From positions 1 to 51,885 of the forward strand of contig JAPUKU010000079.1 of the NCBI GenBank assembly GCA_027295505.1: a DNA stretch of 51,885 nt, written 5' to 3'. This DNA comes from Acidobacteriota bacterium. Its GTDB lineage: Bacteria; Acidobacteriota; Polarisedimenticolia; JAPUKU01. Below the pieces are notes generated by a model, which saw only the letters and a list, made by a program, of their open reading frames with translations, was not told where the DNA came from and did not search any database. Positions 38,301 to 41,567 of this stretch are shown here, piece by piece (within the stretch, counting starts at the first letter, position 1; every line of letters starts with the position of its first letter). The position numbers were made by a program, and so were the translations under genes.

Positions 38301-39215
38301 TCAATGTCCGGGGTGGCTGCGGCTGTTCTTGAAGTCCCGGAAAGCGGTTTTCGGACGGTGCTTGATGACCGGAAGGGCGGTCTTGTTCTCACCGGCAAAC
38401 AGACGGCGGATCTTGCGTTTGGCCTGGACCTCGATCTGGCGCACCCGCTCGCGGCTGAGGTTCATGCGCTGGCCAATCTCTTTCAGGGTGAGAGTCTTGC
38501 CTCCCGAAAAGCCGAAGCGGTTCATGAGAATCTGCTGCTCCTGGTCGCCGAGACCGGTCAGCGCCCAGTGCACGAGCTGGCGGTTTTCCTTGCTGATCAG
38601 ACGATCCTCAACACTGGACTTGGTCTTGTCCGTGAGGAAATCGCTGATGCTGGAGTCGCTGTCCTTGCCGATCTTGCTGTCGATCGACATCTTCTTGCAG
38701 GGCAGCTGCATCAGTGCGTCGAGCTGCGCCACAGAGGCTCCGACCTGCCGGCTGACCTCCTCCCGCTCGGCCTTGCGTCCGAGCTTGCGGGTGAGCTGGC
38801 GTTCGGCGCGATTGAGCTCTCGCACCTTCTTCATCTGGTAGCTCGGAACCCGTACCAGGCTGCTGTGCTCGGCGAGGGCTTTGAGGATCGATTTGCGGAT
38901 CCACCAGACGGCGTAGGTGATGAACTTGGTGCCGCGCCGGTGATCGTAACGGTTTGACGCCTCGATGAGACCAAGGTTCCCCTCGTTGAGGAGATCCTCG
39001 AAAGAAACTCCCATGCCGCGGTACTGACTGGCGATTTTGACGACGAATGAAAGGTTCGACTGCACGAGCTGGTTCAGGGAGCTGGGCTTCTTGCGGCCGG
39101 CACTGACGTCACGCGCCAGGGCCATCTCTTCTTCCTTGCTCATCAGCGAGTACTCGCTGATCTCAGCTAAGTAGCGGGCAATGATGTGGCTGTGTTCACA
39201 CGCTTTTCCTCTCAA
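38301..39215 (-). CDS. Sigma-70-family factor (non-ECF, RpoD/RpoS/RpoH-like)
   Basis: 304 aa from the TTG at 39215, with a long GAGGAGGAGG purine tract ten bases upstream. Region 1.2 (YLAEISEYSLMSKEEEMALA), region 2 (LVQSNLSFVVKIASQYRGMGVSFEDLLNEGN, RGTKFITYAVWWIRKSI), region 3 and region 4 (TLKEIGQRMNLSRERVRQIEVQAKRKIRRLF) are complete. It lacks the acidic region 1.1 and large insert of primary factors, so it is probably an alternative factor. The Lys/Arg/His-rich C-terminal extension beyond region 4 is unusual. The long leader from its promoter (39422-39450) suggests post-transcriptional control. Confidence 0.93.
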   Translation of the reverse strand: MRGKACEHSHIIARYLAEISEYSLMSKEEEMALARDVSAGRKKPSSLNQLVQSNLSFVVKIASQYRGMGVSFEDLLNEGNLGLIEASNRYDHRRGTKFITYAVWWIRKSILKALAEHSSLVRVPSYQMKKVRELNRAERQLTRKLGRKAEREEVSRQVGASVAQLDALMQLPCKKMSIDSKIGKDSDSSISDFLTDKTKSSVEDRLISKENRQLVHWALTGLGDQEQQILMNRFGFSGGKTLTLKEIGQRMNLSRERVRQIEVQAKRKIRRLFAGENKTALPVIKHRPKTAFRDFKNSRSHPGH

Positions 39216-39524: not shown

Positions 39525-39890
39525 ATGACTCCAGAACGCAGCAACCCCGCGCCCCTTGTTGGCAAGAAAATCCGCCAACTCCGGAAAGATCGGAAACTCA
39601 CTCAGTCCGAGCTGGCCTCCAAAATGGGGATTCAGCAGTCGGATCTGTGCCGCATGGAAACGGGTGAGTACAAGGTCAGCCTGGAGGCACTGTTCAAGAT
39701 CCTGCGCATCTTTGACCTGGGTATCAGCGACTTTTTCAAGGATGAGGGGGGGCATTCACCGCCGCTCGGGGATCGACGTGCCGAGCTCTTGCACCTGTTC
39801 GACCGCCTGGAACCACACCTTCAGAACGAGGTGCTCGATTTCATGCACTTCAAGTTGTCCAGCTCAGGTCACAAGGAGGAGAGGAGCTGA
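39525..39890 (+). CDS. XRE-family helix-turn-helix regulator
   Basis: 121 aa from the ATG at 39525; a TTG at 39510 is an alternative. The Cro/C1-type helix-turn-helix occupies about 10-65: IRQLRKDRKLTQSELASKMG, then IQQSDLCRMETGEYKVSLEAL. A variable C-terminal half (about 70-121) is helical and could dimerise or bind a partner. The stop codon overlaps a CTG start of the TPR gene that follows (CTGA). The pair resembles XRE-TPR regulators in which one polypeptide carries both parts, here split in two. Confidence 0.9.
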   Translation: MTPERSNPAPLVGKKIRQLRKDRKLTQSELASKMGIQQSDLCRMETGEYKVSLEALFKILRIFDLGISDFFKDEGGHSPPLGDRRAELLHLFDRLEPHLQNEVLDFMHFKLSSSGHKEERS

Positions 39891-40804
39891 AAAAGAGGAC
39901 GCCGTCCGGCGGTGCCCGATCGGAGCACCGGCTGTGGGCCCAGCGTGGGCGTCGTGCTTACCACCGGGGCGACAGGAGGAAGGCACTCGAGGCCTTCCAA
40001 CGCGCCCTGGAGGCTGCACGGGGTTCAGGGGATGCGGCCCTGGCCCAACGTGCCTTCTGTGACGTGAGCAGTGCGTTGCTGGAGATAGGACGGCCCCGCG
40101 AGGCGGAGAGGGGCCTGAGGCAGATCATCCTGCGTTCGCTCGATCCGCGAGCCGGATGGCAGGCCAGGTTCAACCTGGCGGTGGTACTACGCCGGCAGGG
40201 GCGGCTGGAGCGCGCGCGGCGATTCGCCGGGGGGGCTCTTGAAACAGCCCGGCAGTTGCGGGCGCCACGGCTGGTAGCCCGCTCTATCAACCTCCTTGGA
40301 AATCTGGAGCTCATCGACAGCCGCTTCGACAAGGCTCTGATCCACTACCGGGAAGCCCTGGATCTGTACTGCCGCTCCCGAGGAGATTACCGTCGTGCCA
40401 TCAGCGTGCTGCGCGACAACCTCGGTTACTGCCTGATCCTGAAGAAAGAGTACCGGAAGGGGCTGAAGCAGATCCGTGAGGCGCTGGCGCGCGAGATCGG
40501 TGAGCCGCACGTCGAAGCCGAATGTCTGCAGGACGAATGTTTTGGTCTTCTAAGGCAGAATTTTCTCAGCTGTGCCGAAGTGTGCGGAAAGCGAGCCCTG
40601 CGCCTCGCCGAGCTTCATGGCTACCGCGACCTGCGGGTGAACTGCTACTATCTGCTAGGTGAGATTCGCCACCTGAGAGACGATGGAGCGGGCCGCGATG
40701 CCTACTTCATGAAGCTGCAGCAGCTTTATCCCCACCTGCCGTTCCTGCGCGACTTTCTCTGCGCCTTCGACGTCAGCGGCATCATCAGCCTCAAAACGTT
40801 CTGA
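39887..40804 (+). CDS. TPR-repeat protein with probable CTG start
   Basis: 305 aa if translation begins at CTG 39887, which overlaps the upstream stop as CTGA and has an AAGGAGGA ribosome site seven bases before. No ATG, GTG or TTG is in frame before the GTG at 40064, yet the intervening codons encode a clear TPR helix pair (AYHRGDRRKALEAFQRALEAA) that a 40064 start would cut away. TPR or TPR-like helices continue through the whole protein (RRQGRLERARRFAGGALETA, SRFDKALIHYREALDLY, KKEYRKGLKQIREALA). It is probably a sensor or protein-binding partner for the XRE regulator made just before it. No enzyme motif is seen. Confidence 0.8.
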   Translation: MKKRTPSGGARSEHRLWAQRGRRAYHRGDRRKALEAFQRALEAARGSGDAALAQRAFCDVSSALLEIGRPREAERGLRQIILRSLDPRAGWQARFNLAVVLRRQGRLERARRFAGGALETARQLRAPRLVARSINLLGNLELIDSRFDKALIHYREALDLYCRSRGDYRRAISVLRDNLGYCLILKKEYRKGLKQIREALAREIGEPHVEAECLQDECFGLLRQNFLSCAEVCGKRALRLAELHGYRDLRVNCYYLLGEIRHLRDDGAGRDAYFMKLQQLYPHLPFLRDFLCAFDVSGIISLKTF

Positions 40805-40823: not shown

Positions 40824-41567
40824 TCAGTGGGTGCGCGTACCCGGCTTGTCGTCGTCATCGAAGACCCGGAAGCGCCGCCGCCGGATGTGCCAGCGCAACT
40901 CCGCCAGCAGCTCACGGACGCGCCAGGCCTTCTTCAGGTAAATCCAGCCGAAAACCAGCCCGCCCAGGTGCGACAGGTGGCTGACGCCGCTGCCGGGCTG
41001 CGTCAGTGAGGCGTACAGGGCCATGAAGCCGAGAACGATGACCAGCCACTTCACCTTGACCGGGAACAGGAAATAGACGTGAATGATGCGGTTCGGAAAC
41101 AGCATCCCGTACGCCATCAGGATCCCGTAGATCGCACCCGAAGCGCCGATCGTCGGGAAGGTCGCGCCCGGGCTCACCGCCAGCACCGTCAGGCCGGCCC
41201 CGATCCCGGTGAACAGGTAGTAGCGCAGGAAGGCACGGCTCCCCCAGGCACGCTCCAGGTCTCCTCCGAACACCCATAGCATCAGCATGTTGAACAGGAG
41301 GTGGAAGGGCAGGATCCCTCCCCCGATCGAATGCAGGAACATCGAGCTGCCGAGCTGCCACACCCAGCCCCGGCCCAGCACGTAGGCCGGAACGAGGCCG
41401 AAGAAGCGGATCAGGCTTTCGAAGCCACCCGGGCCAAGGGCCGCAAAGAGCACGACCTCGAGACCAAAGACAATGAAGTTGGCCCACAGCAGGCGCCGGA
41501 TCATCGGCGTCAGCGGGCCGCCTATCCTATAGCTGGCGGCTGAGAAGCGTGCCCAGGTGGGATCCAC
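40824..41567 (-). CDS. Rhomboid-family intramembrane serine protease
   Basis: 247 aa from a GTG. Six membrane helices. The catalytic Ser143 is in GASGAIYG and the catalytic His is in HLSHLGG (His197 or His200); FHLLFN (His89, Asn93) matches the oxyanion-stabilising helix. The family cleaves membrane protein segments. A basic C-terminal tail (RWHIRRRRFRVFDDDD) lies in the cytoplasm. It is transcribed divergently from the small beta protein gene, and a TACAAT box lies in the shared gap on its strand. Confidence 0.93.
   Translation of the reverse strand: MDPTWARFSAASYRIGGPLTPMIRRLLWANFIVFGLEVVLFAALGPGGFESLIRFFGLVPAYVLGRGWVWQLGSSMFLHSIGGGILPFHLLFNMLMLWVFGGDLERAWGSRAFLRYYLFTGIGAGLTVLAVSPGATFPTIGASGAIYGILMAYGMLFPNRIIHVYFLFPVKVKWLVIVLGFMALYASLTQPGSGVSHLSHLGGLVFGWIYLKKAWRVRELLAELRWHIRRRRFRVFDDDDKPGTRTH

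Follow-up and report, generated by a model that had tools for sequence, protein, structure and literature searches.

A probable CTG start codon in the four-base overlap of a conserved XRE-TPR gene pair of Acidobacteriota

In an Acidobacteriota bacterium of the class Candidatus Polarisedimenticolia, the TPR gene of a conserved XRE-TPR pair probably starts at a CTG codon (position 39887) by termination-reinitiation assisted by a Shine-Dalgarno (SD) sequence, a reading to which we assign a probability of about 0.78. The window is the whole stretch of DNA that was analysed, i.e., the 51,885 nucleotides of contig JAPUKU010000079.1 (assembly GCA_027295505.1, forward strand). The features discussed below are the following:

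38301..39215, minus strand: sigma-70 family gene, RpoS/RpoD-like; divergent, conserved neighbour
39525..39890, plus strand: XRE-family HTH regulator gene; 121 aa, ATG 39525, TGA 39888-39890; Pfam HTH_3, E 7e-11
39873..39880, plus strand: putative SD sequence AAGGAGGA, separated from the CTG by 6 bases (GAGGAG)
39887..39890, plus strand: CTGA, in which the proposed CTG start overlaps the XRE stop codon TGA
39887..40063, plus strand: N-terminal extension of 59 codons, predicted to encode the first two helices and the beginning of helix 3
39887..40804, plus strand: gene of the TPR protein; product of 305 aa if started at CTG 39887, stop 40802-40804
40064..40066, plus strand: GTG, earliest canonical start of the TPR frame; codes for valine 60 within predicted helix 3, without SD
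40824..41567, minus strand: rhomboid-family gene; convergent, conserved neighbour

The open TPR frame spans 39746-40804, beginning upstream of CTG 39887, and its segment 39746-40063 contains not a single ATG, GTG, TTG, ATT, ATC or ATA codon. The original prediction held that ATG, GTG and TTG are absent from the frame before 40064, and this proved correct when all coordinates were re-read. Since the first canonical start, GTG 40064, lies 59 codons past CTG 39887, a gene caller that admits just ATG, GTG and TTG as starts indeed drops about 59 residues and yields a protein of 246 aa as against 305 aa from the CTG. The sequence also bears out the overlap of CTG 39887 with the XRE stop as CTGA, behind a properly spaced SD. 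The CTG is thus in frame and served by an SD, and no canonical alternative would yield the full-length TPR protein. A CTG with an SD is by itself weak evidence, so that the decision falls to the homology of the extension.

Orthologues were searched for in 41 genomes of the class (E below 1e-25); none of the relatives searched belongs to the same genus. The TPR gene is present in 22 of the 41 genomes, the source genome included, and the 21 other orthologues share 38-45 % identity with the TPR protein (37 % for one truncated match). Named records among them are Acidobacteriota 'gp22', Candidatus Polarisedimenticola svalbardensis and strain Mor1. The 20 complete orthologues measure about 298-310 aa, which compares with 305 aa from the CTG and 246 aa from GTG 40064. 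Their starts, taken from sequence alone as the nearest upstream canonical start, align from about one residue before to eight after the CTG, i.e., within about nine residues. Homologues that begin at GTG 40064 with nothing similar upstream, which would have refuted the CTG reading, were not seen; the orthologues instead reach the CTG position. Moreover, an orthologue profile built without the query matches the 39746-40063 piece alone with 18.6 bits, the match setting in at model position 8, which is residue 13 when counted from the CTG. Mean identity to the orthologues is 7 % over residues 1-15, 29 % over residues 16-59 and 44 % over residues 60-120. Similarity is found from residue 13 on, while residues 1-12 of the CTG-started protein are not conserved, and homology fixes the start only to within about a dozen residues. 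These comparisons support the assignment of the 59-codon extension to the TPR protein, for which homology is decisive. Within this interval three features favour CTG 39887: no other NTG codon precedes the conserved region, an SD accompanies it, and it lies at a conserved overlap.

Domain models and structure prediction agree with this assignment. The TPR protein is matched above cut-off by the TPR_12, TPR_2 and TPR_1 models, and one TPR_2 match covers residues 15-44, inside the extension. An AlphaFold2 model computed with 13 orthologues is all-helical (mean pLDDT 92.3), with its first three helices spanning residues 7-26, 30-47 and 50-66. In a fold search the best matches were LGN/Pins and consensus TPRs, with Rap structures further down. 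In the predicted structure GTG 40064 (residue 60) falls within helix 3, so that a start at this codon would remove the first TPR, and another in-frame CTG at 39932 (residue 16) falls within helix 1. Predicted pairing with the 16S tail (anti-SD) amounts to -11.2 kcal/mol for CTG 39887, -5.8 kcal/mol for CTG 39932 and +0.6 kcal/mol for GTG 40064.

These data bear on two other places where translation could begin. GTG 40064 has in its favour that it is the first ATG, GTG or TTG of the TPR frame; the 59 codons upstream would then be untranslated, which is contradicted by the homology found there and by the lengths and starts of the orthologues. Its pairing energy corresponds to no SD and its position inside predicted helix 3 is equally unfavourable, and we consider the chance that it is the true start negligible. 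A start at some other non-canonical codon, chiefly CTG 39932, which would give a 290-aa protein, is very unlikely. Its weak SD-like site and the lack of clear homology before about residue 13 would fit such a start; however, the SD is far weaker than at 39887, predicted helix 1 would be cut, none of the 20 complete orthologues is as short as the resulting protein, and the overlap with the XRE stop that is seen in five sister pairs would be missing.

The strength of the SD at CTG 39887 was set against chance. A duplex of -11 kcal/mol or better precedes 0.35 % of random in-frame codons as compared to 4.9 % of 122 near-forced canonical starts, and the median energies of the two sets are alike. 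Strong SDs are uncommon in this genome, which was counted against the CTG reading. A scan of 947 kb, a third of the genome (100 stretches plus the window), found 232 CTGA overlaps that are followed by a long frame, two of which reach -11 kcal/mol where about 0.8 are expected. Two strong-SD junctions are about what chance gives, and the SD is supporting but not decisive evidence. Codon-usage scoring of the CTGA candidates was too weak to decide, and the 39887 case itself fails the strict filter. The second junction (L077:8792-8795, minus strand, contig C30, same genome; SD GGGAGG, -11.8 kcal/mol) joins a BCCT transporter gene to a DUF4380 gene. An in-frame ATG without obvious SD lies six codons upstream of its CTG, which makes that CTG start ambiguous, and no orthologues of this junction were found in the class.

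The junction itself is conserved among the relatives. At every orthologous junction read, XRE immediately precedes TPR, the XRE match being partly masked by N in one locus (L020) and restricted to the HTH in another (L003). Five orthologous pairs have the same four-base stop/start overlap, in the form of ATGA (L014, L018), GTGA (L011, L013) or TTGA (L016); in the remaining pairs XRE and TPR are separate genes with 1-58 nt between them. The proposal that CTGA mirrors coupling of the ATGA type thus finds direct counterparts at the equivalent position. Taken at face value, the aligned sequences place at one orthologous junction a putative overlapping start whose first base is A, G, T or, in the present genome, C. 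The change from TTG to CTG is synonymous in XRE, where it turns the last codon from AGT into AGC, the commonest serine codon of the genome (2761 occurrences vs 531 for AGT), and may have been the evolutionary route to CTGA.

The same comparison raises the question of an error. Base 39887 might truly belong to an ATG, GTG or TTG, the C being due to a consensus mistake or a mixture of strains, in which case the pair would be an ordinary coupled one like the relatives with ATGA, GTGA or TTGA. The deciding base comes from one draft metagenome assembly (259 contigs; 2.92 Mb, 95 % complete), and a collection scan, which may omit records of the source genome, contained no second assembly of the species. 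With one assembly only for the C at 39887, plausibility has to decide whether the CTG is genuine or a consensus error. Consensus errors are rare in assembled short-read contigs and this one would have to fall on precisely base 39887, in a region where the flanking homology is unbroken and keeps the frame. Furthermore, a T to C change at this position is silent and expected from codon bias. We consider an error unlikely.

A further alternative concerns the stop codon. Its suppression, or -1 frameshifting at CTGA, could partly or wholly convert the pair into an XRE-TPR fusion; the TPR frame has no stop back to 39746, and at a mycobacterial AUGA overlap a frameshifted fusion has been reported beside reinitiation (PMC11260477). 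However, no slippery heptamer precedes the stop, the run of A lying after it, and since the genes are 1-58 nt apart in most relatives, two separate proteins are the ancestral state. The probability of a fusion is accordingly remote.

Reinitiation at CTG 39887 could then proceed as follows. Ribosomes terminating XRE translation at TGA 39888-39890 would be held by AAGGAGGA, step one base back and restart at the overlapping CTG with initiator fMet-tRNA. The product would be a separate 305-aa TPR protein, whose synthesis would be coupled, at a low ratio, to that of the DNA-binding XRE protein. We infer reinitiation as the mode of initiation from the precedent of similar overlaps: coupling at four-base overlaps is established, and in most of the tested pairs reinitiation fell when the SD was mutated (PMC6728339). 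Subunits of heteromeric complexes are over-represented among pairs with such overlaps (PMC10666635), which makes it plausible that the TPR and XRE proteins act as the two chains of one regulator, as they probably do. As in the known ATGA-coupled pairs, a TGA stop overlaps an NTG start and the SD resides inside the upstream gene (PMC6728339, PMC10666635); in contrast to these pairs, the start is CTG instead of ATG, GTG or TTG. No CTG start inside a coupled overlap was found described in the open-access literature.

CTG starts as such are rare but known, and that of the XRE-TPR pair, which we infer to be the initiator, would be a further example. According to the excerpt of PMC11983097 on which we draw here, 20 of nearly 85,000 annotated genes have been cited as starting with CTG, and an E. 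coli reporter gave roughly ten-fold less expression from CTG than from TTG (Hecht et al., cited therein), which was counted against the CTG start. The same excerpt describes the IncFIB rep gene (F, P307, pO157), whose CTG start was proven by N-terminal sequencing and mutation, a change of CTG to CTC abolishing function, and which is commonly misannotated at an in-frame GTG 14 codons downstream. The two cases share a CTG start, a good SD and a downstream in-frame GTG that invites misannotation. They differ in that rep is a plasmid gene with a proven start, whereas the present start belongs to a chromosomal gene pair and is deduced from sequence; they also differ in the stop/start overlap, none being described for rep in the excerpt.

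The pairing of an HTH DNA-binding unit with a TPR superhelix is reminiscent of the RRNPPA regulators (Rgg, PlcR, NprR, AimR). These are single chains with an N-terminal HTH and a C-terminal TPR part, unlike the separate genes seen at all junctions read here, which moreover belong to Acidobacteriota. None of the RRNPPA family models passes its cut-off, and the AimR model scores 16.2 bits vs a cut-off of 70, its match being confined to the HTH of the XRE protein. RRNPPA identity was rejected on account of the separate genes and of the AimR match far below cut-off.

Start calling restricted to ATG, GTG and TTG costs a conserved regulator partner 59 residues and its first TPR. In addition, one orthologous junction shows NTGA overlaps with each of the four possible first bases, a natural series for probing the start-codon choosiness of reinitiating ribosomes. 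A tentative extension, which we think doubtful at present, is that at four-base overlaps the stop codon and the SD place the ribosome while the identity of the start codon is relaxed, such that any NTG including CTG works. If so, the ATGA, GTGA, TTGA and CTGA forms of the XRE-TPR junction would be a natural series showing this relaxation, and coupled genes beginning with CTG would be under-represented in annotations beyond this case.

As to other signals, no Rfam match and no plus-strand promoter or terminator was found in the window. A 6-bp stem CAGCUC/GAGCUG (39860-39889), which would hold the SD in its loop and pair the CTG, was rejected as no stronger than in shuffled sequences (z -1.07); if real, it could tie initiation to XRE translation.

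The gene pair is embedded in a wider conserved arrangement. The order sigma-70 (minus strand), XRE, TPR, rhomboid (minus strand) is kept in 12 of the 12 loci with both flanks (L032-L043), pointing to a core locus of regulation in Polarisedimenticolia. Some loci of the class carry one extra gene between TPR and rhomboid. The Polarisedimenticolia sigma-70/XRE/TPR locus is also present on a contig labelled Chloroflexi (L044, VBID01000173.1), which is probably misbinned and whose TPR gene appears to use a TTG start.
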